Source: Stigmatella aurantiaca (GTDB lineage Bacteria; Myxococcota; Myxococcia; Myxococcales; Myxococcaceae). Taken from it: 64,000 nt of DNA. Position numbers and translations under genes: made by a program. Below are positions 7,997 through 56,565 of the stretch, piece by piece. The first letter of the stretch is position 1. Every line of letters begins with the position of its first letter. The notes under the pieces were generated by a model, which had not been told where the DNA came from, did no database searches, and saw only the letters and a list, made by a program, of their open reading frames with translations. Location of the stretch: assembly GCF_900109545.1 (NCBI RefSeq), contig NZ_FOAP01000004.1:62001-126000 (forward strand), written 5' to 3'.

Positions 7997-7999
7997 GGG

Positions 8000-9313: not shown

Positions 9314-9326
9314 GGTGGCTCTCGAT

Positions 9327-11309: not shown

Positions 11310-11313
11310 GGCC

Positions 11314-31022: not shown

Positions 31023-34000
31023 TTACTGGGGCGTCCGGAAATGATCCTCGATCCGGCCTGCGAAGCGGTCCGCCGCCTCAGGGGGAAGCTGGGAGCACGT
31101 CTGCAGGTGGAGGCTGCCATCGAGCACGTAGCTGTAGACCGCGAGGGCTGGGATGTCCTGGAGCACCTTCACACCCCGCAGCTTGAAGCTCCCGAAGCCG
31201 GACTCGATGACGCCCAGGTTGACCAAGAAGAGGCGGCCCGGCGCGGTGAACATCTCCCACAACCCGGGCGCCCAGAGCAGCTTCGCGATCACGCCAAAGC
31301 CATCCGCCATCTTGTTGTAGTACTCGGGCTCGATGCCCGCGTAGGCCCGCTTGTCGATATAGGCCTGGTGTTCCTGATGGAAGTGGCGGGCCAGCTCCCA
31401 GAAGCCAGTCTCCGGGCGCAGGTCCAGCAGGAACTTCGGGTAGGTGGCGTAGTAACCCAGCGTGTCCGTCGGGAGGTTCAGCAGCGGCCGGGCGTCGAAC
31501 GAGCCCACGAGCATCAAGCGGTGGGGCTTGGGGGCCGGGCAGAAGAGCTCCCGCGCGGTGAGACACAGTGCCGCCGACACGGCCCCCGTCACCGAGCTTT
31601 GCCCGCGGGCCATGGTGCCAAGGAGGTGCCGCGTCGCGTCCCGGCCCAGCGTCACCATGCGGGAGGTGCCAGCCACCGAGATCTCCGTACCCCGCTTCTT
31701 CTGGGCCCCGAACGGCGCCTTGAACTTGTTCACCCGGAAGACCTCCAGGCTCGAGAAGACCTCCTGGCCCGTCTTGGCGACGATGGCATCGGCATGCGGC
31801 GCCGGCGGAGCGAGGCCCATCCCCGGCAGCCGGGAGAACAGCTCCTCTCGTGCCACCGGGAGCGCCTGGGGCTTCACCTCCACGGGGGCCCCGGTGCTCA
31901 ACTGGTCATGGAACTCGAACAGATCCCGCACCAGCCGCAGGAAGGCGTGAACCTCCATGTAGCAGTGCCAGATGATGGGAATGACCTGGTAGGCCTCGGG
32001 CTCGCCCTTCTCGCGGATGAACAGGATCTTCTTTTGCCCTGGGTCGCGCAGGTGGCGGGCGACGAGGCTTTCGAGGGTCTCTGTCCCAAGCTCGGAGAGG
32101 AACACGAGCTCCAGCTGGCGCCCTGGCTGGTACTCCAGGAAGAACTCGCCTCGCTTCTTCTCGACGATGGAGGCTCCCAGATAGGGGTAGCGCCTCTCCA
32201 GCAGCGCCGCCGCTTGCCGCATCCGCGCCTGATCAATCGAGCCCTCGATGTGCAGCACGGGGTTGATGTGCAAGTGGCCCAGGCGGTTGGCCTGGTAAAC
32301 CAGGGACTCGAAGGCCCCGAGACGCCGCTGCACGGTCGCGTTCCAGGAAGTCAAAAGCGCATCGTTCAGGAGCGGAGGGGCCTCCTGACGGGCCGGCTCG
32401 GCCCCCTGTGGCTCGGCTGGAGCCTGCGAAATCGCGTGGGCGATCTTCTCGATGGTGTTGTGCTGGACCAGGAAGTTCGGGTCCAGCTTGAGCTGAAACT
32501 CCTTCTCGAGCTCCCGCAGGAGCGTGAGGGACAGGATGGAGTCCAGGCCCAGGTTCCACAGGGTCACCGTGGTGGGCAACGGCCCCTCCTGCGACACGCT
32601 GATCTCCCCGATGATCTTCAAGACACGCTCGATGACCTCGGTGCGGGGACGGGGGCCCGGGGCAGGGGGGCGCGCTCCCGGCAACGCTCCTGGCCGGGGG
32701 GCATGAGAGGCCTCCCGGCGCTTGAGGCGGAGCTTGTCCACCTTGAAGGTCCCGGTCATCGGCATCTCGTCGATGAACTCCACCTCCACGGGGACCTTGT
32801 AGCCCGCGAGCTGCCCCCGGCAGAACGTGGTCACCTCTCGCGCTGACAGCGAGTGCCCGGCCCGGAGGCGGATGACCGCCTTGACCACTTCTCCCGCCGT
32901 GGGGCTCGCAAGGCCGTAGACCGCCGCCTGCTGCACCGCCGGGTGGAGGCCGAGGACGCGCTCGACCTCGCTCGGGTACACGTTCTCTCCGTAGGAGATG
33001 ATCATGTCCTTCTTCCGGCCGGCGATCGTCAGGTACCCGTCGGGCCGGATCGTCGCGAGATCTCCCGTCTTGAACCAGCCGTCCTGGAAGGACTCCCGGG
33101 TCGCGGCGCTGTCATTGAAGTAGCCGCTGAAGACCGTCAGTCCGCGGATCCACACCTCTCCCATCGACTGGTTGTCGCGAGGGACGTCCGCTCCCCGGTC
33201 GTCGACGATCCGCACCTCCATGAGCTTGAACGGCCGGCCCGAGGTGGCAATCAGCTCGAACTTCTCGGCATGGCTGCGCTGGCGGTGCTCCTCCGGAAGG
33301 AGGGACATCGAGATCTTTCCGCAGCACTCCGTCATGCCGTAGGACATGAAGATCTCGCAGCCGAAGATCTGGAGGAGCTTGTCCACCGAGCCTGCGTCGA
33401 GCGCCGAGCCCCCGCAGGAGAGGATCCGCAACCGGCTGAAGTCGTGTGTCCCCACGCCGGGACTGTGGATGAGGAAGTGCGCGGCGGCGGCGGCGAGGTT
33501 CGTGCACGTGATGCGCTCGCTCGCGAGCAACTGCAAGAAGTGGGTTGGATCTGGGTCCGAGACGATGACGTGCTGGCCGCCCAGCCACGTCAGCGCGTAG
33601 ATCGCGAAGGCATCCACCACGTGGTACATGGGCGAGAAGTGCCCCCAGACATCCTCGCCGGTGATGCGCATTTCCTCCGCGGTCGCGAGCGCGTGATGGA
33701 ACACCTGGCGATGGGTGAGGAGCACTCCCTTGGGAAAGCCCGTCGTGCCGCTCGTGTAATAGAGGTGGAACGCGTCGAACTCGGAGCCTCGCTCCGGGAC
33801 GAAGGGAGCGTTTGAACCGGTGAGGGCCTCCTCGTAGCCGTGCGCCATGCCGGGCGTCAGGGCCTGTCCGGGAGGCGCCTGGCGCTCCTGCCCGCTGTGG
33901 GTCCACAGCACGCCGTTGAGCTGCAGGCCACCGAGGCTGACGGCCTCGGAGAGGGTCTGCGCGAAGTCCGGCGATGCGACGATCCAGCTCACGCCCGACT

Positions 34001-37000
34001 GCTGGAAGATGTGGTGCAGCTCACGCGCGGTGAGGCGCACGTTGACGTTCAGCACGACGGCCCTGAGCCCGGCAGCGGCGAAGTGGGTCTCGATGACCTC
34101 CGTCCGGTTGCGGAGCATCACCCCCACGACCTTGCCTGGACCGACGCCTTGCTCCCGCAGGAACTGCGCAAGCCGTGATGCCCGGGCATGCAACGCGCCA
34201 TACGTGTACTGCCGGGCACCGTCCCGGATCGCCACACGCTCCGCGAAGTGGGTCTTCGCGCGTTCGATGACGGCCCACAGGTCGCCAGGGGGCCCTTCGA
34301 CGGAGGGCAGCCGCGGGAAGGCCTTGGGCACGGGGACCGCTGCGGACGCGAGGGCTCCCCGGAAGAAGTACGACTTCTTCTCGGGATCCACCAGGCACTC
34401 GATGAGCGTGCTCTGGCCTGCTTCCCAGGCGGTCCGCGCGGCCTGAACGCACGGGGCCAGCTCCTCGAGGGTGGAGACCGATGCGAAGCGCAGGCCTGGG
34501 CGCCGGTCCTTGAACGCGCTCAGGTCGAACTCGGCGAGCTGGGTGCAGACTTCCGGCCGGTTCGTCGCCCGCTGGATGTCGCCGATCATTCCAAGGCGGC
34601 GGTCCCGGAGCACGACGGTGATGAGGGCTGGGGTGCGGGGCTCTCCCATCAAACTCTTGAGCCCCGTCATCAGGAACGCGCCGTCGCCCACGAAGGACAC
34701 CACGGGCACTGAGGGGTGAGACCAGGCGGCGCCGAGCGCGGCGGGGACCGAGTAGCCCATGCTGTTGTAGTCCGCTGGGCAGAGAAACCGGTCCGGCGCG
34801 CGGAGCCGGAGCGCCTCGAGCGCGTGGATGGTCCCATTGCCCGAGTCAGCGCAGAAGATCGTCTCCGGAGGGAGCTGCGCCTGGACCGTGCGAACGAGCT
34901 CATACGGATCCAGCCCGCTCCCCAGCTGCCTCCGGCCACGAAGATCCTCCTCCACCCAGGCGTGGGCCGCCTGGAGCCGCTGGATCGTGCCGTCCGCCTG
35001 ACGGGGAAAGTCACCGCGGTAATGCCTGTCGAGATGCTTCAGCAAGGACTGGAGAAAGACCCTGGCATCCGAGGTGATCCCGATCGCAGCAACCGCCTTG
35101 TTCGGGACCGCTGGGTCGATATCCACATGGAAGCAATACGCGGGGAAGCGCGCGCGATAATGAGCGCTTCCCAGCTCGCTGAGCCGCGCTCCAAGGATGA
35201 GCGCGCCGTCGCACTCCTCCGCGAGGGCCTTCATGGGTGGAGGAGTTAGGGGACCGAAGCCGCCCCACAGCCACAAGGGGTCCGTCTCGGGAAACACGCC
35301 CTTGCCAGAGAGCGTCGAGGCGACGACAGCACCTGTCCGGTGCGCCAGCTCCAGGAGCTCGGCGGAGCACGCCCGCGCGCCACGTCCCACGAAGAGCACG
35401 GGCTGCTTCGCGCGGAGGACCATCTGCGCCACGGCGTCCAGCTCGGCCTCCGTGGGAGCAGTGGTGGGAGCCTGCTGCTGGACCTTCGGCGCTGCGGGGG
35501 ACGGAGCGCCAGCCGATGCGCCGAGGGCCACTGGACACACCAGGCAGACGGGGCCTGGCGCGGAGGACATGCTGAGCTGGACCGCTTCCTGGAGGGTGCG
35601 TGTCATCTCCCCGGCCGAGGAGAGGACGGTCACCGACTTCGACAGGTGTCTCAGGGACCCAAGCCAGGGCATGGACGGAGAGGAGGCCAGGATCAGGACC
35701 ACGAGGGGAACCTGGTCGAGGTGGGCCTCACCGACTCCCGACAGGACCGAGGAGAGCGCCCACTCTTCCGGGAGGATGATGGCGGCGGGCTGCTTCGATG
35801 AGCGCGAAGCTCCGTCCGCGACGAACCCCAGGTTCTGATCATGACGCACGGTCTTGACGGGCAGCTCACCCGAGGACAGGGCCTCGGCCACGGCTTGCAG
35901 CCGTGCGTCTCCCGCGATGAACACGGAGCCGAGCCCGCTGGCCTGGATGCCTTGCTGCAAGGCCGGGAGCCACGAGGCACCGAGGGCCACGGGGCTGGGA
36001 GTCCCCGCCTGGGCCGCGGCATGGCTGACTTCGCAGATGACCACTTCGGGAGTGCGAAGCGTCTCCACGAGCTGGCGGGCCAGGGCCGCCTCGTCCGTGG
36101 CCCGGAGGAGCCGGACACGGGCGAGCCGTGAGACGAGTTCGAGGCTCTCATCCTGGGCCGAGCCGCGCCCGGCGAGAATCACGAGGGGAAGGCGCCGCTC
36201 GGCCGCCAGGGTGAGCTCTGGCGCGAAGGCCACGAGCGACTCGGCATCCGTGGCCGCGACCGCGAGCTTCTGCGAGAACGCGGCGCCCAGCGCCAGGGGA
36301 ACCGCGCCCCGGCGGGAGGGAACTCCCTGGTGGTTCAGGTCGCTGACGGCGTAGAGCCCGCCAAGCCCCAGCGCGGCCGCACAGGTCTCCAGCGCGCTGG
36401 CCAGCGCCGGAGGGAGCGAGGCGTTCTGCCACCTGGAGGCGCTTCCCAGGGGCCTGACGGCCTGCGCCGGGCCGCGGAAGGCCGACGTCCGCCGGAGCAG
36501 GTGCATGGGCACCTCGAGCGCGCACGGACCGGGCTCGCCCCCCAGCGCGGCATCCACGAGCCGCGCCACGGTCTCATGCACATCATCGTCCTCGGTCAGA
36601 CGGTGGACCCCCTTGCAGAGCGGGGCGAGGACGCCCAGGTTGTCGACATCGTGCAGCTGGTACGAGCGGCCCTCTTCGCGCCCACAGCCCGTGGTGAGGA
36701 TGAGCAGGGGGGTCTGGGTGCGGAACGCGAACTCGATGCCCGGCAGGGCGTGGGTGATGCCGGGGCCGCCGATGACGTTGACACAGCCAAGCTGGCCGCT
36801 GCTCTGGTACTGCCCGGCGGCAAGGTACGCCGCACTTGCCTCGTTGGCGATGAGCACGGGCTCCACCACGCCGCGCCCGAGCATCTCGTACAGGCGCAGG
36901 TTCTGGACTCCTGGAATCCCAAAGCAGCGAGGGATGCCAGCGGCCCGGAGCGCAAAGCCGAGGAGCTGACTGGTGTCATAGGTCTCGTTGAGCGTGGGAC

Positions 37001-37028
37001 GCTCGAACAGCTCACTCTGTATCCGCAT
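31023..37028 (-). CDS. ThDP enzyme / acyl-AMP ligase / ACP / condensation-type acyltransferase fusion
   Basis: A 2001-residue protein and the last gene of the synthase operon. Residues 15-180 are a ThDP pyrimidine domain with the cofactor-activating Glu63 (ANEAS). Residues 210-500 contain further degenerate ThDP-like segments, 525-665 the central domain and 705-885 the diphosphate domain with GDG at 781-783. The usual NN of that motif reads RD (808-809). Residues 915-1440 form an acyl-activating ligase with YTSGTTGFPKG, TGD and Lys1429. An ACP follows at 1465-1535 with Ser1497 in GLDSI. Residues 1565-2000 are a condensation/PapA5-like acyltransferase in which HHxxxDG reads WHCYMEV. The likely role is chain loading or release with C-C bond formation (inference). 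Confidence 0.85.
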   Translation of the reverse strand: MRIQSELFERPTLNETYDTSQLLGFALRAAGIPRCFGIPGVQNLRLYEMLGRGVVEPVLIANEASAAYLAAGQYQSSGQLGCVNVIGGPGITHALPGIEFAFRTQTPLLILTTGCGREEGRSYQLHDVDNLGVLAPLCKGVHRLTEDDDVHETVARLVDAALGGEPGPCALEVPMHLLRRTSAFRGPAQAVRPLGSASRWQNASLPPALASALETCAAALGLGGLYAVSDLNHQGVPSRRGAVPLALGAAFSQKLAVAATDAESLVAFAPELTLAAERRLPLVILAGRGSAQDESLELVSRLARVRLLRATDEAALARQLVETLRTPEVVICEVSHAAAQAGTPSPVALGASWLPALQQGIQASGLGSVFIAGDARLQAVAEALSSGELPVKTVRHDQNLGFVADGASRSSKQPAAIILPEEWALSSVLSGVGEAHLDQVPLVVLILASSPSMPWLGSLRHLSKSVTVLSSAGEMTRTLQEAVQLSMSSAPGPVCLVCPVALGASAGAPSPAAPKVQQQAPTTAPTEAELDAVAQMVLRAKQPVLFVGRGARACSAELLELAHRTGAVVASTLSGKGVFPETDPLWLWGGFGPLTPPPMKALAEECDGALILGARLSELGSAHYRARFPAYCFHVDIDPAVPNKAVAAIGITSDARVFLQSLLKHLDRHYRGDFPRQADGTIQRLQAAHAWVEEDLRGRRQLGSGLDPYELVRTVQAQLPPETIFCADSGNGTIHALEALRLRAPDRFLCPADYNSMGYSVPAALGAAWSHPSVPVVSFVGDGAFLMTGLKSLMGEPRTPALITVVLRDRRLGMIGDIQRATNRPEVCTQLAEFDLSAFKDRRPGLRFASVSTLEELAPCVQAARTAWEAGQSTLIECLVDPEKKSYFFRGALASAAVPVPKAFPRLPSVEGPPGDLWAVIERAKTHFAERVAIRDGARQYTYGALHARASRLAQFLREQGVGPGKVVGVMLRNRTEVIETHFAAAGLRAVVLNVNVRLTARELHHIFQQSGVSWIVASPDFAQTLSEAVSLGGLQLNGVLWTHSGQERQAPPGQALTPGMAHGYEEALTGSNAPFVPERGSEFDAFHLYYTSGTTGFPKGVLLTHRQVFHHALATAEEMRITGEDVWGHFSPMYHVVDAFAIYALTWLGGQHVIVSDPDPTHFLQLLASERITCTNLAAAAAHFLIHSPGVGTHDFSRLRILSCGGSALDAGSVDKLLQIFGCEIFMSYGMTECCGKISMSLLPEEHRQRSHAEKFELIATSGRPFKLMEVRIVDDRGADVPRDNQSMGEVWIRGLTVFSGYFNDSAATRESFQDGWFKTGDLATIRPDGYLTIAGRKKDMIISYGENVYPSEVERVLGLHPAVQQAAVYGLASPTAGEVVKAVIRLRAGHSLSAREVTTFCRGQLAGYKVPVEVEFIDEMPMTGTFKVDKLRLKRREASHAPRPGALPGARPPAPGPRPRTEVIERVLKIIGEISVSQEGPLPTTVTLWNLGLDSILSLTLLRELEKEFQLKLDPNFLVQHNTIEKIAHAISQAPAEPQGAEPARQEAPPLLNDALLTSWNATVQRRLGAFESLVYQANRLGHLHINPVLHIEGSIDQARMRQAAALLERRYPYLGASIVEKKRGEFFLEYQPGRQLELVFLSELGTETLESLVARHLRDPGQKKILFIREKGEPEAYQVIPIIWHCYMEVHAFLRLVRDLFEFHDQLSTGAPVEVKPQALPVAREELFSRLPGMGLAPPAPHADAIVAKTGQEVFSSLEVFRVNKFKAPFGAQKKRGTEISVAGTSRMVTLGRDATRHLLGTMARGQSSVTGAVSAALCLTARELFCPAPKPHRLMLVGSFDARPLLNLPTDTLGYYATYPKFLLDLRPETGFWELARHFHQEHQAYIDKRAYAGIEPEYYNKMADGFGVIAKLLWAPGLWEMFTAPGRLFLVNLGVIESGFGSFKLRGVKVLQDIPALAVYSYVLDGSLHLQTCSQLPPEAADRFAGRIEDHFRTPQ

Positions 37029-37084
37029 GCTTCGCCTCGCGTCTTCCCGCTTCCCGCCAGGCCGGAAGCGGTAACCATGTCCCG

Positions 37085-37945
37085 TCAGGGGACCTCTTGT
37101 AGTGCGAAACCCCGGAAGACCCCGACGGGCCTCCCCCGCTCATCCCAGGAGACCACGTGGAGAGACTGCCGGCTGTCCTGGGTGCTCTTCCGCCGGGCGA
37201 AGACCTGCACCGGGCCCTGGGGAACGGCATAGAGATCCGCGGCCTCGATCTCCAGGGGGAGCAAGGTTCTCGCGCGCGACAGCACGCCCAGGGAGAACCC
37301 CACGTGGAGGACGGCATTGAGCAACGTAGAGGGCCACCCGGGTGTGTCCGGGGCTCCCTGCCAACCGCGCTGGGGCCGGCCGGGAGAGGCGACGGCCGCG
37401 AGCAGCTGATCCGGTGAGCGGTGCCGGTAACAGACGCCCGCGAGGAAGGCCGGCCCGTGCCGGATCTCCTTGGGAAGGGCATAGAGCTCCGCGTAATCCG
37501 CGGCACCGGCGAAGTCGATCCGCTGAAACCGCGCGGCGCGCTCTTCCGGCTCGCCCATCAGCACCTCGCCGGAGGCATGCGTCCGGAGGATGTACGGCGA
37601 ACCCCCCCGGGGCGGAGCCATGCGGGACGAGATGACGACGGAGATCCGGTCCGGTTCCGTCTCCACGGGCTCCGCGGTGACCGTGAGCTGGAGGCTGCGG
37701 TGGCCCTTGAAGCGTGCGGCCTGGACGAAGCGCACGTTGCGCACGCCCCGCACCGTCCGGTGCGGCAGCATGCGATGGGCCGCCTGCGTCATCAGCCCCA
37801 GGAGGTACGCGGCGGGAAGTACCGGCAACCCCTCGACGACATGGTCCAGCAGGTAGGGATCCGTCTGGATATCCATGGCGCGCTCAAAGCGCCACGTTCC
37901 TTGCTCCACGGAGACATTGCCCAACTGCGGCTCGTAAGCGCTCAT
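37085..37945 (-). CDS. Stand-alone polyketide dehydratase-like double hot-dog protein
   Basis: A 286-residue protein with the dehydratase N-terminal motif HVVEGLPVLP (His35, Gly39, Pro44) in the first hot-dog half. In the second half the expected catalytic Asp of the DxxxQ/H motif is Asn210 (LLNAVLH), unlike the DGCFQ and DSIHH of the other two dehydratase units in this operon. It may be a non-catalytic partner or work differently, perhaps as a product template or thioesterase-like unit. The start overlaps the phosphopantetheinyl transferase stop by ATGA, and the next gene follows 56 bp later. Confidence 0.8.
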   Translation of the reverse strand: MSAYEPQLGNVSVEQGTWRFERAMDIQTDPYLLDHVVEGLPVLPAAYLLGLMTQAAHRMLPHRTVRGVRNVRFVQAARFKGHRSLQLTVTAEPVETEPDRISVVISSRMAPPRGGSPYILRTHASGEVLMGEPEERAARFQRIDFAGAADYAELYALPKEIRHGPAFLAGVCYRHRSPDQLLAAVASPGRPQRGWQGAPDTPGWPSTLLNAVLHVGFSLGVLSRARTLLPLEIEAADLYAVPQGPVQVFARRKSTQDSRQSLHVVSWDERGRPVGVFRGFALQEVP

Positions 37946-38754
37946 GCCGAGGCTGCCTCTGCGGCGTGGAGCACCGCCAAGGCATAGCCGCGGCCCAGGG
38001 CGATGAGCCCCGTCACCGTCCCTCCGGCGGGGCGGGTAGGGTGCAGGGTGATCAACCGCGAGAAGGCCTCTGGCACATCCGTGAGCCAGGGGATGGCGGC
38101 GGGCACCACTCCCTGCTCCGTCCACCGGGAGAAGCCCACCTGCAGGAGGGAGTCCCGAAGGCCATGCCCCGTGCACTTCACCATGGCTTCTTTGATGCAC
38201 CAGCCCAGGCTCCACAGCTCATCGGGCGTCCGGCCATGGAGACGCTGGCAGTGCATGAGCCAGTCTTGCTCGGCGGCGGTGAACACGTCCTCCAGGAAGC
38301 CGGGCCCCCGCGGCCTTACCCGCTCGAGATCGACGCCCACGCGTCCTCCTTCCGTGGTGCTGGCCACCGCCAGCTCGTGAGAGTGGGTGATCGACACGTC
38401 ACAGGCCGGACACCCGGGTGGCAACTGTGCCATGGGGCGTCCCTGCTCAGGGCCCGCCATGATCTGGCAGAGCCCCAGGTCGTGCGCCGCCAGCGGGACT
38501 CCGCCGAGCTGGAGCTGGTGGAGCAGCGCGGACTTCGCGGCCACCCTCCCGGCCAGGTGCGCCACCCTGCGCTCGGGCATCCGATGCATCCCGCTCACGG
38601 CAAGCTCCGCTTGGGTCAGGACGGTGGCGAGTGTTCCCTGTGGGTTGGACTCCCACGCCTGGCGCACGAGGGGCTGGGGCACCACCGCGAGGGTGATGTG
38701 CGGGCCTCCTGGCAAGCTCACGCGGAGCGGATCCACCTGGCACCATTCAGCCAT
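37942..38754 (-). CDS. Sfp-type 4'-phosphopantetheinyl transferase
   Basis: A 270-residue protein with the Mg/CoA motifs GVDLE (Asp142, Glu144) and WCIKEAMVK (185-193), preceded by SITHSH. It attaches phosphopantetheine from CoA to carrier-protein serines. Within this operon the only canonical serine carrier is in the 2001-residue fusion; the divergent PKS/NRPS carriers are other likely clients. It overlaps the upstream KS-KS-DH gene by 8 bp and the downstream dehydratase-like gene by 4 bp. Confidence 0.92.
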   Translation of the reverse strand: MAEWCQVDPLRVSLPGGPHITLAVVPQPLVRQAWESNPQGTLATVLTQAELAVSGMHRMPERRVAHLAGRVAAKSALLHQLQLGGVPLAAHDLGLCQIMAGPEQGRPMAQLPPGCPACDVSITHSHELAVASTTEGGRVGVDLERVRPRGPGFLEDVFTAAEQDWLMHCQRLHGRTPDELWSLGWCIKEAMVKCTGHGLRDSLLQVGFSRWTEQGVVPAAIPWLTDVPEAFSRLITLHPTRPAGGTVTGLIALGRGYALAVLHAAEAASA

Positions 38755-45426: not shown

Positions 45427-47530
45427 GGGCCAGGCTCCTTTGTGCGCGGAGGAATCCGGACGGATCCAGCGAGCTCACGAGGGATGACTTCTGCTGGGGC
45501 GTGTAGGCATCCACGCTGATCGAGCAGTAGTCATGGGCCTCGAGGCAGACCCTTCCCGCCTCATTCCACACGGTGAAGTCGTAATAGAGCAGCTCCCCCT
45601 CCTCCCGGGTCAGCTCCGCCCGGCACCAGAGCCGCTCTCCCGGCTTCGGGTCGCATCCCAGCGACAGTCGGCGGGCGGCCTTGGGCACGGGGGCCCGCAG
45701 GTTGTGGAGGATTCCCAGCGTGCCGGCCAACTGGAAACAGCCATCGAGGAAGAACGGATCCACCCAGAACCGGGCCCGGGGGACGGAGGCAAAGTAGCCA
45801 TCGGGCTCGGGCACGCGCAGGCACGCGATGGCCTGCCGGGGGCTCAGGTAGCTGATCCAGTCGACCCGCCGGAAGCGTTCCCCCACGTGGAAGTAGGCGT
45901 CCTCCACGTAGGAGCGGCTGAAGGGGATCTCCCCATCGGGTCCGCGGGCTGCTCCGAAGCCCGGCTCCACGCGCCTGTCAGGCCGAGGGCCCAGCAGGAC
46001 CGACGCCCGGTAGTGCAGCACCTCCGGGCGCAGCACGAGTCCTCGCGGGTGGTGGATGTCCACGTACGCGGAGAGCTCCCATCCTTCTCCCCGGGGCTCG
46101 CTTCGCACCTGCGCCTGCACGGGGCGATCGGGCCGCACCCGGATGAACTTCTCCAAGGAGACATCGCGCAGCTCAGCCACCTCGCCACTGCCCACGAGCG
46201 CGGCCACCTCCGCCAGCCACTCGATGGCCGCCGCACCGGGCAACACGGGGGTACCGTTGACGAGGTGCTCCTGGAGATACACATCCTCCTGGAGATCGAA
46301 CGTGCGCTCCCGCCCTCCGGCCTGCCGGGCCGTCCCCAGCATGGGGAACCGGCCCACGGGCTGAACCGGAGCCGCAGAGGCGCTCTCCACCTCGGGGAGC
46401 CGGTCCTGGAACAACGGCCGGAGCGCCAGCCGGCGCCTGCGCTCCAAGGCGGCTGGAATCCCTCCCGCGGCGAAGTCCATCGTCAGCGTGGTGGGCTCGT
46501 AGGCCATGCTGAGCACGTTGTCCGCCCGGCAGAGGGTCCTCATCGAAGGAGAGGCCCCGCCGCTGGGCTCACCGCAGTCCCGCAGGAACTCCACGGCGGT
46601 GTCCAGGGTGATGTGGCCCCACCGCTCACCGATGAGCTGCTCCATCCGGCGATAGCGGTGGATCGAGTCCTCCTGCATTTCCTGGAGCATCTCCAGGGCG
46701 GCGGCTTCATGGCCCTGCGCCTGCTTGTGTGCGGCGACGAGGTGATTGGAGGAGACCACGAAGTCCTTGCCGACTCCGGTCCTGTACTGGCCGGAGTAGG
46801 GGCCCGTCTGCTCCCAGACCTGCGCCGTCCCGGAGCGGTGGGCCAGCATCAGGTTCCAGCTGCCCCCACGCGGCAGTCCTTCGAGAATGCGGGACGCCTC
46901 GTCCATCGTCCTGGCGCGGGAGAGCAGCTCGCGGTTCTGGAACGTGAGCGGGTAGAACGTCCGCCGGTCCATGGGGGCCACCGGGACGTTGATGCCCAGG
47001 CTCAACCCTTCCGCATTCATCCCGGCGCACGCTCCCAGCGCTCCGGCCCAGAAGGTGATCGAGACATAGGGAATGCGCCCCGTCACCCGGTAGATGATGC
47101 AGCATGGCTGCATGAGCCCGGCCAGGGTGGGGTAGGGGATGTCCAGGTTGTGCCCATGGAGGACATTCCCATGGGCGGTGGCTTGGCCCAGGACGGCGAA
47201 CTGAGAGCAGCCGATGGGCGCGCCGGACACGATGTCCAGGATGAGCGCGTAGTAGAGGAGCGTCTCCCGGGCAATGCCGCTGGTGTCGGCAATGCCCTGG
47301 AGCTCCTCGTGAACGTCGAGTGGCAACAGGGCTGCCAGTCCTGACATCCGCGCCGTCACGTCCTGCGCCTTCATTCCCAGCTTCGTCAGGACGGGGCGGA
47401 GGGCGGACGCTCCAAGCGTCACGGTTCGCTCGAGCTCCTGCCGCATGAGGCTGCCGTACTGCCTGCCCACCTCATACGGACTTCCCGACAGGACCAGCAG
47501 CGGCAGTGACGCTGCTGCCTCAGATGGCAT
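45419..47530 (-). CDS. Ntn-hydrolase (peptidase C45/acyl-CoA:6-APA acyltransferase-like) fused to dehydratase
   Basis: A 703-residue protein with two unrelated parts. Residues 1-350 match the C45 family of Ntn hydrolases: an N-terminal helical region, then GAPIGCSQF with the presumed autocatalytic nucleophile Cys108, NVLHGHNLDIP and later SNHL. Family members form or cleave amides, as in the isopenicillin N acyltransferase. Residues 405-690 are a double hot-dog dehydratase with HLVNGTPVLP (His422) and Asp596 in FLDGCFQ. I know of no standard PKS with this fusion. It could release or N-acylate the finished chain (inference). ATG 47530 overlaps the upstream gene by 11 bp; GTG 47542 is an alternative. 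Confidence 0.85.
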   Translation of the reverse strand: MPSEAAASLPLLVLSGSPYEVGRQYGSLMRQELERTVTLGASALRPVLTKLGMKAQDVTARMSGLAALLPLDVHEELQGIADTSGIARETLLYYALILDIVSGAPIGCSQFAVLGQATAHGNVLHGHNLDIPYPTLAGLMQPCCIIYRVTGRIPYVSITFWAGALGACAGMNAEGLSLGINVPVAPMDRRTFYPLTFQNRELLSRARTMDEASRILEGLPRGGSWNLMLAHRSGTAQVWEQTGPYSGQYRTGVGKDFVVSSNHLVAAHKQAQGHEAAALEMLQEMQEDSIHRYRRMEQLIGERWGHITLDTAVEFLRDCGEPSGGASPSMRTLCRADNVLSMAYEPTTLTMDFAAGGIPAALERRRRLALRPLFQDRLPEVESASAAPVQPVGRFPMLGTARQAGGRERTFDLQEDVYLQEHLVNGTPVLPGAAAIEWLAEVAALVGSGEVAELRDVSLEKFIRVRPDRPVQAQVRSEPRGEGWELSAYVDIHHPRGLVLRPEVLHYRASVLLGPRPDRRVEPGFGAARGPDGEIPFSRSYVEDAYFHVGERFRRVDWISYLSPRQAIACLRVPEPDGYFASVPRARFWVDPFFLDGCFQLAGTLGILHNLRAPVPKAARRLSLGCDPKPGERLWCRAELTREEGELLYYDFTVWNEAGRVCLEAHDYCSISVDAYTPQQKSSLVSSLDPSGFLRAQRSLAHG

Positions 47531-50500
47531 AGCGGGTTCCACCCGCCTGCTTGGCGGTCACCTGGAGTGCCTCCTTCTCGTGACGCGGCCACCCGCGGGA
47601 AGCGAAGGTCCTGTCATCCGCGATGACGACCTCGCCCGCCCTGCCTCCGTACAGCAGCTCGCCCACGAACCAGTAGGCTCCCTCGGAGGTGTCGATGACG
47701 CAGACCCCCGCCTTGCCCAGGCGCTCCAGGTAGTCGCGGTTGTTCTCCACGATGCCGGCGCCCACCCAGACGGGCCAGTCAATCGTCACGCTCCGCACCT
47801 CGGGCCGCAGGGCGCCGTACACCAGCCCGGCCTTCGCCACGAGCGCATTGGCCGCGGAGTAGTCGGTCTGGCCCTGGTTTCCGTAGCGGCCACTGCCCGA
47901 GCCGAAGTTGATGAAGAATTGAAGCGCATCGCCCCGGGTCTCGTGGGCCAGCACCTGCCAGAGGTGCGCCTTGGAGGCCAGCGTGCGGACAATCGCGTCC
48001 GCCGACTTCATCGGCAGGCTCTTGGACTCCTCGATCGTCGCGCCATGCACGATGCCGTCGATCCGGCCGTACTGCCGGCGAACCTCGGCGAGCAGGCTCC
48101 GGACGGCGGCCGGGTCCGTCATGTCACAGACCTTGTAATCCAGCTGGAGCCCCTGGGCCCGGCAGTCCTCGAGGCTCTGGTGCAGCTCCCTCCGGCGCGC
48201 GATGTCCGTGTCAAAGGCCTTCATGCCCTGCACCGGCGTGGACCCCGGATGGGCAGCCATGTAGCGCTTCACGAAGCTCATCCGGTAGGCCGGCAGGTCC
48301 GCCTCGGGGATCTTCAACCACTCCTCGTTCCCGTTCGGAGGCACCGTGCGGCCCGTGATGATCACGCGCGCACCGGTCACCTGAACCAGGAGCTTGGCGC
48401 AGTGATAGACGACCCCGCGGCCTCCTCCCGAGACGAGCACCACGGAGCCCGGCGGGATGGACGCCGCCGGCCCGGTGGCCGCGAGAGGCGTCTCGATGTC
48501 CCGGAAGACGTACCGGCGCCCGCCGCTGTAGCCGGTCTCGACATCCGGATCGGCGCTGACCAGCTCCGTCCAGATCTGCTCGGCCCAGGCGGACGGCTCG
48601 CGAGGATCCAGGTCCACGGCCTTGCACCGGGCGCTGGGCAGCTCCCGCTTCAGGCACTTGATGAAGCCGCCCGAGGCACCGGCCAAAGGAACTTGGCCCT
48701 GGGCGTTCCGATGGCCGAAGAGGCCGCCGCCTGCGGTCGCCACCAGATACCAGCCGCCTCCCGCCATCTCGCCAATCCGGTCGTACACGGACAAGGCGCT
48801 GTGGTAGAGGCCCAGCGTGAACGCATTCACGGTGGAGGCCCACGTGGCGGCATCCAGCTCCGCGAGCTTGGGTGCCGGAGCGGTGGTGTGCAGCAGGATC
48901 AACCCATCGAGCGGCTGAGCCGGGGCCGCCCCCGGTTGCAGGATGGCCACCCGGGCACCCGCTGACTCCAACCGCTGCGCCAGCTGCTTGTAGGTCCCCT
49001 GGGGGTCGGCGGTGATGCCCAGCGTCTTGCCTCGCAGGTGAGCGATGGTCTCACCCTTGGGCTGCGTGGATTGCTCGACGGGGTGGACCTCGTACCGCTT
49101 CGCGGAGAACTGGGCCGGAGGGGTGAGCGGTCTGGCGGGAGCGTCCAGCTTGCCGCGGAGGTGCGCGGCCAGCCGCCGCAGCGACTCCGCATCTCCAGTC
49201 GCCTCACAGTGGGCCACGAACCGGCGGACATCGTCGAGGCTCAGCGCCCCCTGAACGGCCACAGGCTGGGCCAGAGGCTCGGACCTGGGCGGGGCGGCGC
49301 TCTCCGCGCGGGGCGGGCTCGCGAGGGCGGCCGCCATCTTGCGCAGGGTGTTGCAGTCGCGTACCCGGAAGCGCTCATCCGGGGGCACGCTGAACGCGGC
49401 CTGGGCGGCGGAGAAGGCTTCGAGCTGAGTCTGGGGATCGATTCCCAGGTCCACTTCCAGATCGAAGTCGGGGCCCAGAACCTCCGTGTTGTAGCCCGTC
49501 TTCTCCTGAAGGGTGGCGGTGAGGAACGCCAGGAACTGCTCCTCACGGGTTGCCACGGAGGCAGGGGGGGCCGCACTCCCGGAGGCCTTGCCCACGAGGT
49601 AGTCCACCATCTTGCGGAGGGTGTTGTAGTCGCGGAGCCGGAAGTTCTCGTCCTTGTCCACGCCCAGGTTGACCCGGACCATGGCGAAGGCTTCCACCTG
49701 CTTGACGGTGTCAATCCCAAGATCCGCTTCCAGATCCAGGTCCAGCTCGAGCATGTCCTCCGGGTAGCCGGTCCGCTCCACCAGGGCGCCCACGAGCTGC
49801 TTCGTGATGGCGTCAGCCTGGGCCGCAGGGGCGGCGCTGCGAGGCTGCGGGGTGACAGGAGCCGAGGCAGGGGCCGAGGCAGGGGCAGGCACTGCCTTGC
49901 CGGTAGCCGGAGCGGAGCCCGAGGCTTTGCTGGTCAGATACTCGGCCATCTTCCGGAGCGTGTTGTAGTTGCGGACCCGGAAGTTCTCGTCGCGCTCAAG
50001 CCCGGACTGGGTGCGCGCCACGGCAAACACCTCGATCTGGGTGATGGTGTCGATGCCCAGATCGACCTCCAGGTCCAGGTCGGGCTGGAGGATATCCAGC
50101 GCGTAGCCCGTCTTCTGCGCCATCGCGCCCTGGAGGAACTCCAGGGTCTGTGTGACGGAGCCGGCCGGAGGAGCCACGGGGGGCGCCACGGCCACAGGGG
50201 CGGCTGCGCCCGGGGCCCGCTGGACCAGGTAGTCCACCATCTTGCGGAGCGTGTTGTAGTCCCGCAGGCGGAAGTTCTCGTCCTTCTCCACCTTCAGGCC
50301 GACCCGGGCCTGGGCAAAGGCCTCGACCTGCTTGACCGTATCGATGCCGAGATCCGCTTCCAGATCCAGGTCCGGCTCCAGCATGTCCGCGGGGTAGCCC
50401 GTGCGCTCGACCAGAGCGCCTGTCAGCAGCTTCATCACCTCCGCAGCGGGGACGGGGGCCTCGGGGGCTCCTGGCCCGGGCGCCGCGGCACCTTCCTTCT

Positions 50501-50900
50501 TCGCGGCATCCATGCGGGCCAGAGCACGGTGCGTCTCCTCCAGGAGGGTCTCCAGCGGGGGGCGCTCGTTGCGCAGCGCGCAGCCGTCCACGAAGGCGAG
50601 GACCTGGGCGAGCGTCACCTCCCGGCCCGAGGCGGCGGGCCGCTCCTGGGGGAGGCTCTTCAGAATGCCTTGCGCGATCGATGCGATGGTCGGGTGCTGT
50701 TCAGGATGCAGGGCCATAGGTGTGGGAATGCCGAGCTTCCGTCCGGCGGCGGTGACAGCGTCGTTGATTTCTTCGGGCGTCATTCCAAGGTCTCTCACCA
50801 GATCCACCTCATGGCCGAAGAGCTCAGGCGGGTAGCCCACCCCTCTCACCAAGGCGGCGATGACTTCTTCCTGGATCGACTCCAATGTCGCGAGAGCCAT
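47520..50900 (-). CDS. Tandem ACP-like domains with PUFA-type ketoreductase
   Basis: A 1126-residue protein. Residues 1-85 are a degenerate carrier-like domain. Four carrier-like repeats follow at about 153-228, 250-326, 363-438 and 453-527, joined by Ala/Pro linkers as in PUFA synthase ACP arrays. In the LGIDS motif the phosphopantetheine serine is Thr188, Thr285, Thr398 and Pro489. From about 600 to 1105 is a PUFA-type ketoreductase with VSGGGRG (824-829) and catalytic Tyr1014 in DYSAAN. ATG 50900 follows AGGGG and lies 10 bp after the upstream stop. It would carry and reduce the growing chain if the threonine carriers can be loaded. Confidence 0.88.
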   Translation of the reverse strand: MALATLESIQEEVIAALVRGVGYPPELFGHEVDLVRDLGMTPEEINDAVTAAGRKLGIPTPMALHPEQHPTIASIAQGILKSLPQERPAASGREVTLAQVLAFVDGCALRNERPPLETLLEETHRALARMDAAKKEGAAAPGPGAPEAPVPAAEVMKLLTGALVERTGYPADMLEPDLDLEADLGIDTVKQVEAFAQARVGLKVEKDENFRLRDYNTLRKMVDYLVQRAPGAAAPVAVAPPVAPPAGSVTQTLEFLQGAMAQKTGYALDILQPDLDLEVDLGIDTITQIEVFAVARTQSGLERDENFRVRNYNTLRKMAEYLTSKASGSAPATGKAVPAPASAPASAPVTPQPRSAAPAAQADAITKQLVGALVERTGYPEDMLELDLDLEADLGIDTVKQVEAFAMVRVNLGVDKDENFRLRDYNTLRKMVDYLVGKASGSAAPPASVATREEQFLAFLTATLQEKTGYNTEVLGPDFDLEVDLGIDPQTQLEAFSAAQAAFSVPPDERFRVRDCNTLRKMAAALASPPRAESAAPPRSEPLAQPVAVQGALSLDDVRRFVAHCEATGDAESLRRLAAHLRGKLDAPARPLTPPAQFSAKRYEVHPVEQSTQPKGETIAHLRGKTLGITADPQGTYKQLAQRLESAGARVAILQPGAAPAQPLDGLILLHTTAPAPKLAELDAATWASTVNAFTLGLYHSALSVYDRIGEMAGGGWYLVATAGGGLFGHRNAQGQVPLAGASGGFIKCLKRELPSARCKAVDLDPREPSAWAEQIWTELVSADPDVETGYSGGRRYVFRDIETPLAATGPAASIPPGSVVLVSGGGRGVVYHCAKLLVQVTGARVIITGRTVPPNGNEEWLKIPEADLPAYRMSFVKRYMAAHPGSTPVQGMKAFDTDIARRRELHQSLEDCRAQGLQLDYKVCDMTDPAAVRSLLAEVRRQYGRIDGIVHGATIEESKSLPMKSADAIVRTLASKAHLWQVLAHETRGDALQFFINFGSGSGRYGNQGQTDYSAANALVAKAGLVYGALRPEVRSVTIDWPVWVGAGIVENNRDYLERLGKAGVCVIDTSEGAYWFVGELLYGGRAGEVVIADDRTFASRGWPRHEKEALQVTAKQAGGTRYAI

Positions 50901-50910
50901 GCGGGAGCCC

Positions 50911-53900
50911 CTAGCTGCCCATGAGGTGGTGGACGTGGCTGAAGGCCAGCAGGCGGTGGAATTGCTCGGTCTCACCCGTCTTGGGGTGGCTGCTTGCTTG
51001 AGCCATGTACGGTTCGCCTTTGAGCGTTGCCTGGATGAAAGCCGTCAGGGACCACTTGGGCCCGGACTCGAGGAAGATGCGGACTCCGTCCTCATGGAGC
51101 TGGCTCACGTGCTGCCAGAATCGCAGGGGCAGCACGTACTGCAGGGCCAGGTGGCGGGCCATGAAAGCCGGCTTCACCGGGGTGGGGTAGTAGCGGCCAT
51201 GCACACTGGAGAGGACTGGCAGCTGAGGCTCCATCCAGGCAAGCCGCCCCAGCTCCGCCCTGAAGGTGGGCACGGCCTTGGCGATGAGCTGGGTATGGTA
51301 GGCGTGAGAGACGGGCAGTGCCCGGGCCTCGAACCCATTCGCGCTGCACCAGCGCAGGACGTACTCGACGGCCTGGGTCTCTCCGGCCACGATTCCCTGC
51401 CCTGGTGCGTTCTCCGCGGCCACGGTGGCGTACCCTGGGGCCTCCCGGATCACCCCACGGAGCCTGTCGAAGTCTCCGCTGATGCTGGCCATCAGGCCTG
51501 GCGTGCCAACCGGCAGCCGGGTGACCGCGAGCGTGCGCTGGTAGATGGCGCGCAACGCTTGCTCAAGAGAGAGCATCCCGCTGGCGGCCAGTGAGGCGTA
51601 CTCACCAGAGCTCTGCCCCAGCAGCACATCCACCCGGATGCCCCAGGAGCGAATCAGACGGAAGAGCGCCACGTTCGCCAGGAAGACGGCGGCATGCGCG
51701 GTATCGTCATCCTGCCGGTACGAGCCCTCGGTGCCCGGAGGCACCCAGAAGGTGTCAGACAGGCGGCGCCCCGCGAGGGACTCGAAGGCCGCATCGGCCT
51801 CCGCGAAGGTTCTGGCCACCACGGGGTACTCCGCGGCCAGCTCCCGGAGCATGTTCACGTACTGAGGCCCCTGACCCGGGAAGACCACCGCCACTTTGCC
51901 CGAGTGCAGCTGACGCGGGTCCCGGGTGTCGTAATAGAAGAGGCCCTGCTCTGGCAGGCTTGGCGTCCCAGCACCGGCCAGCAGCCGGCGCGCCCGATCC
52001 AGCAGCTTGCTCACGGGCTGTCCCTTCGGCAGCGTCATGGCGAATCGGCAGGGAACTCCGGTGCCGGCCCGAGGCGTCCGAAGGTCCAGCTGGGGCTCGC
52101 GTGCCACCCTCTGGATCAGCCCCTCCACCTGCTGGAGGATGCTGGCCTGGCTGGTTCCCTCGAGATGGAGGAACGGTGGGCGCTCCGGTTCCACGGCGGT
52201 CACACGCGCGGTCCGGCGCACAGGGCTCGGCGGAGCCTCCTCCACGATCGCGTGGAAGCTGGTTCCGCCCAGCCCGAACGAAGAGATACCTGCCCTGCGG
52301 ACTCCGTGGGCGGAGGCTTCCCAGGGCTCTACCTCCGTGGGGACCCGGAAGGGGATCTGCTCCCAGGGAATGCGGGGCGTGGGACGCTCGAAGCCCAGGT
52401 TGGGCGGCACCTGCTTGTGGTGCAGCGCCAGGGCGACCTTGGTCAGCGCGGCCGCTCCGGCCCCGGAGTTCAGGTGGCCGATGTTGGACTTGATGGACCC
52501 CAGGAGGATCTTCTCGCTGCGCGAGGCTTGGCCGTAGACCGAGTGGTAGGACTCCACCTCAATCGGATCGCCGACAGGGGTTCCCGTCCCATGCCCTTCG
52601 ACGTAGTGGATGGTCTCGGGGGACACTCCGGCCTTCTCCACAGCCCGCCGGACCGCCTGCACCTGGCCTTCCGAGCTGGGCGCCCAGATGGAGGCGCTCT
52701 TCGGATCCGTGGCACCAGCGACCGAGCGAATCACCGCGTAGATGCGGTCCCCCGCGGCCTGGGCATCCGTCAGGCGCTTGAGCACGAGCAGGGACGCCCC
52801 CTCACTCGAGATGTAGCCATCCGCCCGGGAGTCGAACGGGAAGGAGCCCGTCTGTGACAGGCCTCCGAAGGAGCAGCACTGGCTGAGGGCATCCACGCCC
52901 AGCGAGGCGTACATGCCACCCGCGAGCATCAGGTCGCACGCGCCCGTGCGCAGCTGGCTCATGGCGATGTCGACCGCCGCCAGACTGGACGCGCAGGCGG
53001 ACTCCACCATGAGCGCGGGCCCCTGGAAGTCCAGATGGTGGGCGATGCGGCTCGCCGAGAGGCTGCCCAGATAGCCCAGCAGCGTGTCCTCCGTGACGGG
53101 CGGCAGCTCGCGCTTGTAGCGCTCCTCCGCCTCGCTCCGGATGCGGGCCGCCGTCGCCTCATCGATGCCGTGCCGTCTCAGGTGTGCGGCCAGGCGCCCA
53201 TCGAACTCGGCGTAGTAGACGCGGGCCTGCGTCTGGAACTCGCGCTCCAGAGGCGGCAGGTACCCCATGACGACCCCCACCCGCCCCGAGTCCACGGCCG
53301 CCGGGGTATAGCCCGCGTCATCCAGCGCCTGCAGGGCCGCCTTCATGGTCCAGCTGTGCCCGCGGTCGATCTGAGAGGAGACCTTGGGGGGAACGCGGAT
53401 TCGCTCTCCGGGCCAGGAGCCGTCGACGATGGAGCCCGCCAGGTCCGTGTAGGGCCTGACCTTGCTCTGGCGGGTAGGGTCCAGATAGCGGCCAATGGGC
53501 GCGCGCTCGGGAGGGATGGAACCAATCGCACAGCGCTTGTCCAACAGGTTGCGCCACAGCTCTTCCGGGGTCGCGGCCTGAGGGAAGACCCCTCCCAGGC
53601 CGACGATCGCGATCGGCTCGGAAGAGGGAGGGGCTGGCTGCGTCTTGGCCAGCCGCGCGTGATACTCCGGGGAGTGCTCCTCCAAGGTGAGGTGGTAGCT
53701 GATCCCCCCGAAGCTGAAGGCGCTGACGCCGGCGCGCCTCAGCCCTCCGGCCACGCCCGGCCAGGGCCTCTCGTGGTTGGAGATGTAGAAGGGGGTGTTC
53801 TCGAACTCGAGGCCTTGGGCCGGCTCCTGGAACGAGTGCTGCGGCGGCAGGCGCTGGCGGGACAGCGCGAGGATGGCCTTCATGAGCCCTGCGGCCCCTG

Positions 53901-55077
53901 CTGCGGCTTGGAGGTGGCCTGTCAGCTCCTTGACGCCTCCCAGCATCACGCTGCTGGCGGCAGCCTGGCTGCCGAAGACTTCCTTCAGGCTCTCGAGCTC
54001 CGTGCGATCGCCCAGGGCAGTGCCCGTGGCATGGCACTCCACATACTGCACGTCCGCCGGGCCATACCCGGCCTGGGCATAGGCGCGGCGCATCGCCAGC
54101 ACCTGTCCCCGGGAGTTGGGTGCCAGCAGGGACTTGCCCTTGCCATCGGAGGCGGCCCCAACGCCACGGATGACGGCGTAGATCTTCTCTCCGGCGGCCA
54201 AGGCATCCTCCAGCCGGCGCAGGACGAAGACGGCGGCGCCCTCGCCCAGCAGCGTCCCGGACGCGCGGCGATCGAAGGGCGTCAGCGAGGAGACCGCCAG
54301 GCCCCCCAGCTTGCTGAAGGCCACGAGATCATGCGGCGTGAGCAGCTGGCTGCAGCCCGCCGCCAACGCCACGTCGCAGTCGCCGAAGTGGAGCTGGTGG
54401 CTGGCCGTCTGAATGGCGGCGAGGGTGGAGGCGTACCCCGCGTCCACGGTGGTGTGAGGGCCCCGGAGGTTGAAGATCTTGGCCGCCCGGCCCACCCACA
54501 CACTGCTGAAGGAGGCAATCGCCTCGTCCTCGGTGAGCCCCGCCATCTCGGCTTCGAGCTGCTGGACGGCCGAGGCGCGCACCTGGGCGACGGTCTCCTC
54601 GCCCAGGGCCGCCAGGGTGGGGGACTCGGAGAGCGCGCGCACCATGTCCAGCAGCCGCGTCCGCACCCGGGTGTCCGGGCGGAGTCCTCCGCCCAGGGAG
54701 CCGAGGGTGAAGCTCACGCGCTCTGGGAGCACCCGCGCCAGGACGGCCCGCGCATCATCGAGCGCCTGCGAGACCGCCTCCAGGAAGGCCAGCTGCGTCC
54801 GGTGCATGTCCTGGAACGTCTTGGGGGGGATCCGGTACTTCCGGTAGTCGAGCTTCAGCTCCTCCAGCAGCGCGGCATGCTTGCAGTACGTCCGGTCTGG
54901 AGCCGTGGGATCTTCGTCGTAATACCAGCTGGGGAGCTCTTGAGGGCCGTCACTCAGCTCACGGATGGCGATGCGCCCCGTCTGAAGTTGCTCCCAGAAA
55001 GCCTCCACGCCAACGGCTTTGGGAAAAACATTCCCAAGGCCCACAACGGCGATCGGCCGGAAGTGAGGAGCTTCCAT
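50911..55077 (-). CDS. PUFA-synthase-like protein: KS-like (CLF) - KS - AT, first gene of operon
   Basis: A 1388-residue protein. The first ketosynthase fold (about 7-470) has Tyr215 in place of Cys (DAGYAST) and keeps His349 and His388. The second (about 487-950) is intact: Cys695 in ESACASS, His829 in EGHGTGTPVGD and His868 in NIGHLNS. An acyltransferase follows at about 1062-1350 with FPGQGPQY, the serine motif GQSSGE (Ser1156; usually GHSxGE) and SHAYH, suggesting malonyl-type loading. It is the first gene after an AT-rich divergent promoter region. ATG 55077 is the most likely start. Confidence 0.9.
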   Translation of the reverse strand: MEAPHFRPIAVVGLGNVFPKAVGVEAFWEQLQTGRIAIRELSDGPQELPSWYYDEDPTAPDRTYCKHAALLEELKLDYRKYRIPPKTFQDMHRTQLAFLEAVSQALDDARAVLARVLPERVSFTLGSLGGGLRPDTRVRTRLLDMVRALSESPTLAALGEETVAQVRASAVQQLEAEMAGLTEDEAIASFSSVWVGRAAKIFNLRGPHTTVDAGYASTLAAIQTASHQLHFGDCDVALAAGCSQLLTPHDLVAFSKLGGLAVSSLTPFDRRASGTLLGEGAAVFVLRRLEDALAAGEKIYAVIRGVGAASDGKGKSLLAPNSRGQVLAMRRAYAQAGYGPADVQYVECHATGTALGDRTELESLKEVFGSQAAASSVMLGGVKELTGHLQAAAGAAGLMKAILALSRQRLPPQHSFQEPAQGLEFENTPFYISNHERPWPGVAGGLRRAGVSAFSFGGISYHLTLEEHSPEYHARLAKTQPAPPSSEPIAIVGLGGVFPQAATPEELWRNLLDKRCAIGSIPPERAPIGRYLDPTRQSKVRPYTDLAGSIVDGSWPGERIRVPPKVSSQIDRGHSWTMKAALQALDDAGYTPAAVDSGRVGVVMGYLPPLEREFQTQARVYYAEFDGRLAAHLRRHGIDEATAARIRSEAEERYKRELPPVTEDTLLGYLGSLSASRIAHHLDFQGPALMVESACASSLAAVDIAMSQLRTGACDLMLAGGMYASLGVDALSQCCSFGGLSQTGSFPFDSRADGYISSEGASLLVLKRLTDAQAAGDRIYAVIRSVAGATDPKSASIWAPSSEGQVQAVRRAVEKAGVSPETIHYVEGHGTGTPVGDPIEVESYHSVYGQASRSEKILLGSIKSNIGHLNSGAGAAALTKVALALHHKQVPPNLGFERPTPRIPWEQIPFRVPTEVEPWEASAHGVRRAGISSFGLGGTSFHAIVEEAPPSPVRRTARVTAVEPERPPFLHLEGTSQASILQQVEGLIQRVAREPQLDLRTPRAGTGVPCRFAMTLPKGQPVSKLLDRARRLLAGAGTPSLPEQGLFYYDTRDPRQLHSGKVAVVFPGQGPQYVNMLRELAAEYPVVARTFAEADAAFESLAGRRLSDTFWVPPGTEGSYRQDDDTAHAAVFLANVALFRLIRSWGIRVDVLLGQSSGEYASLAASGMLSLEQALRAIYQRTLAVTRLPVGTPGLMASISGDFDRLRGVIREAPGYATVAAENAPGQGIVAGETQAVEYVLRWCSANGFEARALPVSHAYHTQLIAKAVPTFRAELGRLAWMEPQLPVLSSVHGRYYPTPVKPAFMARHLALQYVLPLRFWQHVSQLHEDGVRIFLESGPKWSLTAFIQATLKGEPYMAQASSHPKTGETEQFHRLLAFSHVHHLMGS

Positions 55078-56165: not shown

Positions 56166-56565
56166 GCCGTTCTCCCGGGGTTGAATGGAGTTGGAATATC
56201 CCCATGGCGACTGCCTTCCAGGTGGCCCCACGTGTATTGGTGACTTGTATTGGCATTCATGCCTCGGGGCAGTTTGTCTTGAGGAACACCGCAGTGAGTA
56301 CTCAAGCGATTCACGAGACAGCGCAGCTCCGGTCCTTCGTTGTTGCCTGGGGATGAGCCAAATCCATACCGATGTTCCTGTGCTCATCTGGGACTCATGA
56401 GCGACGGTCAGCAGGCGGCTGAAAACAACGCGCTCAGCCCTTCCCGATACATTGGGTGCGGTACGCAGTAAACCCTACTCAATGAATTGGAATCTCAAAG
56501 TATAAGAAACTTATTCTGTGTTTCGCGGGAACTCCTTGTTGACCGGTGTTTCTTGCCATGGGGTA
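56166..56565. promoter_or_regulatory. Intergenic region before the PKS gene
   Basis: About 400 bp without a gene I can support. It has lower GC than its surroundings near both ends and contains two small palindromes, GGCATTCATGCC (56252-56263) and TGAGTACTCA (56295-56304), as possible operators. TATAAG at 56501 could be a -10 box, but no fitting -35 was seen. Confidence 0.35.

Follow-up and report, generated by a model that had tools for sequence, protein, structure and literature searches.

We analysed a 64,000-nucleotide stretch of the 9.37 Mb genome of Stigmatella aurantiaca (assembly GCF_900109545.1), which spans positions 62001-126000 of contig NZ_FOAP01000004.1 (C4) and is referred to below as the window. 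At 31023-55077 the window contains an operon of eight minus-strand genes resembling those of polyunsaturated fatty acid (PUFA) synthases. It represents a variant, not seen before, of a type of assembly line that is known but has received little study, and the part of it most worth specialist attention is a threonine at the site where its acyl carrier proteins (ACPs) would bear phosphopantetheine.

Gene content of the operon

The open reading frame (ORF) listing, translation and Pfam searches confirmed the eight genes, whose likely starts, as read from the translations, are the higher coordinates in Table 1. Five of the seven junctions are overlaps of 4-11 bp; the other two are gaps, one measuring 10 bp and the other, ahead of the last gene, 56 bp, so that the earlier note on this DNA was right to describe six of seven as overlapping or within 10 bp. 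The encoded domains include three proteins with two ketosynthase (KS)-like domains each, one acyltransferase (AT), one ACP array with a ketoreductase (KR) and three dehydratase (DH) units. They are accompanied by an Sfp-type phosphopantetheinyl transferase (PPTase), a fusion of a C45 N-terminal nucleophile (Ntn) proenzyme with a DH, and a large protein combining a thiamine diphosphate (ThDP) enzyme, an AMP ligase, an ACP and a PapA-like domain. Apart from the KS proteins and the large protein, this is the inventory that the note had listed, and Pfam and NCBIfam searches bear it out; likewise, neither a PfaD-type enoylreductase nor a thioesterase was among the Pfam matches of the operon at E up to 0.01, as had been stated. 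The three pairs of KS and chain-length factor (CLF)-like domains also stand, with their order corrected: in each, a KS-like domain lacking the active-site Cys (Tyr, His or Ser) comes first and the Cys-bearing KS second. The C45 domain passed the NF040521 cut-off of 85 with 175.1 bits, and its Gly-Cys site is intact in all nine aligned copies. Two features had been overlooked, namely the threonine at the carrier site, which is the oddest feature of the operon, and the divergent FabD-like gene P0014. The product of this gene scored 260.3 bits against TIGR00128 (cut-off 260.9), and P0014 belongs to the cluster as its ninth member.

Table 1. Features of the operon and of the adjoining gene in the window
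Feature	Coordinates	Strand	Content	Basis
P0008	50911..55077	-	KS-like (Tyr for active-site Cys), KS (Cys), AT	Pfam; active sites aligned over relatives
P0007	47520..50900	-	Degenerate N-terminal ACP (LGMTP), four tandem ACPs, KR	
ACP1	50202..50465	-	Thr at phosphopantetheine position, codon 50337-50339	
ACP2	49911..50174	-	Thr at phosphopantetheine position, codon 50046-50048	
ACP3	49572..49835	-	Thr at phosphopantetheine position, codon 49707-49709	
ACP4	49299..49562	-	Pro at phosphopantetheine position, codon 49434-49436, LGIDPQTQ	
P0006	45419..47530	-	C45 Ntn hydrolase (Gly-Cys site kept) fused to DH	
P0005	42574..45426	-	KS-like (His in place of Cys), KS (Cys)	
P0004	38747..42577	-	KS-like (Ser at active site), KS (Cys), DH	
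P0003	37942..38754	-	Sfp-type 4'-phosphopantetheinyl transferase	
P0002	37085..37945	-	DH with its His intact; Asn at the position held by Asp in the other two DHs	
P0001	31023..37028	-	ThDP enzyme with two Pyr domains, AMP ligase, ACP (usual Ser at attachment site), PapA/condensation-like domain	
P0014	55260..56165	+	FabD-like malonyl transferase, divergent; next to or inside the cluster in relatives	

The large protein P0001 (2001 aa) had been described as a ThDP-ligase-ACP-acyltransferase giant. Its ThDP, ligase and ACP parts were recovered; the PapA-like match reached 22.0 bits against a cut-off of 30, and the transferase assignment, which draws on weak Pfam matches, is weak. The AlphaFold model of the C-terminal domain, built with four sequences, was too poor for use (pLDDT 37.7). 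Condensation domains have HHxxxDG at the place where this domain has WHCYxEVHAF. The first Pyr domain keeps the catalytic Glu (NEASA) and the second has Asp instead, while the PP domain shows GDG, and RD where related enzymes have NN. Among solved structures, the ThDP part is closest in sequence to BbmA and acetolactate synthases, and the ligase to acyl-CoA ligases.

The full-length C45-DH fusion was found in 13 of 96 genomes of the family, with the DH half alone matching in eight more, and P0001 in four of the 96 (the window and three Corallococcus genomes), all of which carry the core cluster.

Threonine at the carrier site

In descriptions of the assembly lines for fatty acids, polyketides and peptides, the carriers use a conserved serine. 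When the residue at this position was left free, the tandem ACPs found in the 13 clusters with the C45-DH fusion (n=57) had 56 Thr, one Pro (ACP4 of the window, which is probably dead) and no Ser. The motif in P0007 reads LGIDT, compared with LGIDS in several other myxobacterial PUFA-like genes. As a whole protein, the P0007 array gave no Pfam PP-binding match at E 0.01, at which P0001 (LGLDS) was the matching protein of the operon; cut out singly, the four window ACPs scored 20.1, 20.1, 23.5 and, for the Pro one, 23.2 bits (cut-off 20.8). The AlphaFold model of ACP3, built with 26 sequences, reached a pLDDT of 92.3, and its helix 43-57 (helix II) begins at Thr43. The 50 listed structural matches in the PDB were mostly ACPs or complexes holding ACPs, with TM scores of 0.56-0.77 by query length, and included the tandem ACP of PigH (5y08), which phmmer also found with ACP2 (E 9.2e-6). 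ACP3 is therefore predicted to have both the fold of an ACP and an attachment residue at the N-terminal end of helix II.

The residue was surveyed in 195 genomes of the phylum. The motif LGIDT[VIM]KQ occurred 102 times in 47 genomes. With a free codon, 144 sites across 84 genomes matched [DE]LGIDx[VIM]KQ, with Thr at 101 of them, Ser at 43 and no other residue, whereas [DE]LGIDx[VIM]KR, with Arg as CGN, gave 63 sites in 25 genomes (62 Ser, one Asp, no Thr); both tallies were counted by hand from the full listings. The Asp, at G117:C552:10581, is the sole non-hydroxyl residue in the free-codon searches. Reversed-pattern controls gave no hit in any genome for all three motifs. All four Thr codons occur in the survey, ACT and ACA being seen in the motif searches, and the 19 loci inspected had ACC and ACG only. 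At each of the four Ser-type xKQ sites inspected (G003, G006, G022, G028), a lone ACP sits in an open frame about 480-590 aa long, and tandem ACPs were found by alignment in G013 (array locus), G033, G017, G034 and G044. On a tree of 78 ACPs the Thr/Ser label needs two changes, against a mean of 20 in 500 shuffles, although this tree has few columns, an unsettled bootstrap and rows partly picked by the Thr pattern. Thr-ACPs are also present in other PUFA-like megasynthase families of the phylum (L029-L033, L037, L042), and two genomes, G036 (L043, L042) and G165, each contain Ser-type (xKR) as well as Thr-type (xKQ) arrays, in distinct locations. A P0003-like PPTase lay in five of seven Thr-type stretches of other families and in none of four Ser-type stretches, a co-occurrence that carries little weight because the stretches cover only 8-15 kb.

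We propose that ACP1-3 carry threonine-linked phosphopantetheine, probably set by the PPTase of the operon, which would be the natural agent for such loading. The cluster of G005, which we take to be S. aurantiaca DW4/3-1, is informative here. At E up to 1, its Thr array alone matched Pfam PP-binding (83.0 bits, five stretches), with no match in the other seven genes scanned, including the FabD-like gene (one gene was scanned as two pieces). Thus, if this locus is that of the published synthase considered below, Thr-type domains are its sole recognisable carriers, which argues that threonine holds the phosphopantetheine unless an outside ACP serves. A hidden Markov model (HMM) built from 96 distinct ACPs likewise detected no Ser-ACP in stretches of G005, G001, Corallococcus terminator, G013, G033, G017, G034, G044 and G016, but it is insensitive to ordinary ACPs, scoring the Ser-ACP of P0001 at just 12.7 bits as a partial match. 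More broadly, we consider it moderately probable that multi-ACP megasynthases found across the phylum form a class in which O-(4'-phosphopantetheinyl)-threonine, set by PPTases of their own, takes the place of serine, and that the dawenol type is one branch of it. This would insulate the class from the serine carriers of the cell.

Alternatively, the Thr-ACPs may form an unloaded scaffold, with a Ser-ACP from outside the cluster, e.g., the AcpP of fatty-acid synthesis, carrying the chain. The textbook attachment site is indeed a serine, as given in the cited part of PMC7949117, and both the Pro of ACP4 and the N-terminal ACP, degenerate in all eight aligned copies, fit unloaded domains. Nevertheless, drift at a dead site would not yield Thr or Ser at 144 of 144 xKQ sites, arrays of two to five tandem copies are retained, and a PPTase was present in each of the nine clusters checked among the 13. 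We thus regard an unloaded scaffold as rather unlikely. Several points weigh against threonine-linked phosphopantetheine and against the overall reading given below, however. The threonines may never be loaded, their place being taken by some other Ser-ACP of the cell, and in the window the residue is already gone from one ACP. None of the Foldseek matches to the ACP model has an E below 0.001. As the clusters are related, the 56 Thr domains represent far fewer independent events, and the motif counts see only domains with an intact flanking motif and miss those that have drifted. In addition, the genome searches score the best candidates, at most 11-12 per genome, so that absences are not proof, and the assignment of G005 to DW4/3-1 is presumptive.

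Related clusters and the dawenol type

The operon is not of an orphan kind, as seven of its eight genes match a dawenol-type locus. In a search of 59 genomes, the own genome included, the ACP-KR protein had matches of 73-77% identity (best stretch) in G001, G004 and G005, three of the six other genomes of the genus. Genes P0002-P0007 occur in the same order, at 58-84% identity, in these three and in Corallococcus sicarius and C. terminator, and P0008 at 76-85% in the four of the five loci that reach it, the C. sicarius locus starting inside P0007 with P0008 and the FabD-like gene out of reach. All seven core genes are also present in G080, G106 and G093, with rearranged order in G106 and G093.

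Three architectures were observed. In G001, G004 and G005, the FabD-like gene (translated in G001 and G005, and an ORF at the same place in G004) lies on the operon strand with the seven genes, without the ThDP giant. In the window, C. sicarius, C. terminator and G080, the last belonging to the genus group of the other two Corallococcus, the giant is added, and the FabD-like gene is divergent in the three loci reaching it. In genus g23, represented by G106 and G093, with the other four genomes read in part, there are an extra KS-pair protein and a seemingly membrane-bound protein of about 530 aa, and the FabD-like gene comes last. The copies of P0001 in C. sicarius, C. terminator and G080 are 77-78% identical to that of the window. 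In P0004, the residue of the first KS-like domain is Cys in all nine clusters without the giant and Ser in all four with it, which may be a single event, as these four form one clade. A tree of C45-DH sequences splits the window and the three from Corallococcus from the other nine with 100/100 support, contrary to the genus grouping, which indicates transfer or differential loss.

The dawenol cluster is BGC0000044 on CP002271.1 of S. aurantiaca DW4/3-1, according to the cited part of PMC12211065; dawenol is termed a PUFA-like polyketide in a passage of PMC8767328, and its cluster is given as conserved in Stigmatella in one of PMC12766979. In G005, a single locus matched the ACP array plus KR, the other listed matches reaching at most 50.1 bits (12 of 81 candidates scored). 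The seven-gene synteny with G005, the published PUFA-like dawenol cluster of DW4/3-1 and the single matching locus together lead us to conclude that the operon is of the dawenol type. It has the syntenic core P0002-P0008 with the C45-DH fusion, but its gene set does not end at the DH gene P0002 without a ThDP protein. The note had named a characterised cluster with the same genes and fusions as what would refute it; such a cluster exists as far as seven of the genes go, but it lacks the eighth.

The note had also suggested that the lipid is joined to the product of the neighbouring polyketide synthase-nonribosomal peptide synthetase (PKS-NRPS), a large modular system on the plus strand that begins at 56518 and fills the window to 64000, with plus-strand KS domains running on to C4:183124 (about C4:183000). 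It does adjoin the operon (56518-63036 and on), and PUFA-PKS-NRPS hybrids exist, some with a ThDP (SEPHCHC) synthase, as described in part of PMC13291983. Yet the two systems of the window face opposite ways, and no PKS-NRPS lies upstream of the cluster in G005, G004 and G001 (about 8 kb each), G080 (about 18 kb) or C. terminator (1.7 kb). The conserved linkage expected of a triple hybrid was thus not found within the stretches taken, and as the relatives examined have no PKS-NRPS beside the cluster, a joint product is highly improbable and was rejected.

Elsewhere in the window, isopropylmalate-dehydrogenase-like, HMGL-like and aconitase-like genes with an O-methyltransferase (5820-11399) may form a second chain-elongation set for 2-oxoacids, and a cytochrome c gene is accompanied by a gene weakly similar to outer-membrane multihaem (MtrC-like) proteins (683-3974, plus strand). 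Outside the window, two adjacent KS-like genes on the minus strand at G000:C36:19668-21615, with open frames of 428 and 456 aa, are a possible type II KS-CLF pair.

Proposed route and comparison with known systems

Taken as a whole, we consider it likely that the operon encodes a dawenol-type, PUFA-synthase-like iterative polyene synthase with threonine-loaded ACPs, release by the C45 enzyme and P0001 as a tail. The catalytic steps and the product that follow are ones we infer from gene content, synteny and conserved residues. The PPTase P0003 would load 4'-phosphopantetheine on the Thr of ACP1-3, and malonyl would be supplied by the FabD-like protein and the AT. The chain would be extended by the three Cys-bearing KS domains, each behind its Cys-less partner, with the KR and DH units working in every round. 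With a KR, three DHs and no enoylreductase, a conjugated polyene is predicted to remain, in line with dawenol being called a polyene, and the earlier view of a PUFA-synthase-like operon for a specialised lipid is supported to this extent. The polyene would be freed by the C45 hydrolase, the likeliest release enzyme from its presence in 13 of 13 clusters and its conserved Gly-Cys site. Of the amide and/or acyloin release suggested before, the C45 enzyme thus stays as the best candidate, while acyloin chemistry is possible only in the four of 13 clusters with the ThDP protein. In these four, P0001 probably captures the released acid, re-activating and modifying it, so that the product should be a relative of dawenol and not dawenol itself.

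If these readings are correct, widespread natural tandem threonine carriers, in an assembly line with a reported product, would alter how carriers are identified. The threonine system would also supply a PPTase and carrier that may work independently of serine carriers, and genomes with both kinds (G036, G165) would allow a direct test of this separation. The ThDP-ligase-ACP-transferase variant would suggest that at least four sequenced genomes encode a dawenol relative not yet described. Threonine-linked phosphopantetheine was not reported in the literature searched, which left out most subscription papers; the threonine carrier may be new, although the 2014 dawenol paper of Osswald et al. 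may mention it.

In PUFA synthases the KS precedes the CLF, and the ACP motif contains Ser. A canonical PfaA-E synthase for membrane lipids like eicosapentaenoic or docosahexaenoic acid has practically no chance of being correct and was rejected: TIGR02813 (PfaA) is the best NCBIfam match of P0004 and P0007, but no operon protein reaches its cut-off of 1010.1 (best 695.5, P0008), the PfaD domain was not found in the operon proteins, the KS-like domain precedes the KS, and the array (three Thr, one Pro) is not one of tandem Ser-ACPs. What the operon shares with PfaABCDE and the secondary lipid synthases is the logic of KS, AT, tandem ACP, KR, DH and PPTase (PMC3098273, in part); the words serine and threonine are absent from its main text. 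The PfaD enoylreductase of the PUFA synthases sets them apart from the operon, in which none was found.

The megapolipeptin/chitinimine-type hybrids resemble the operon in one respect: the P. megapolitana and Tistlia clusters also combine PUFA-like genes with a ThDP (SEPHCHC) synthase, but they have PfaD homologues and a linked PKS-NRPS, and the cited part of their description mentions no ThDP-ligase-ACP-transferase fusion (PMC13291983). The clusters of C. sicarius, C. terminator and G080 share with the window the ThDP giant, the core and the Ser in the first KS of P0004, and differ in having four or five Thr-ACPs, none with Pro. The dawenol-type locus of G005 has the seven genes in order, the C45-DH fusion, the PPTase, the Thr-ACP array and an adjoining FabD-like gene. 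Unlike the window, it is without the ThDP-ligase-ACP-transferase gene, has the FabD-like gene on the operon strand, and keeps the Cys in the first KS-like domain of P0004.

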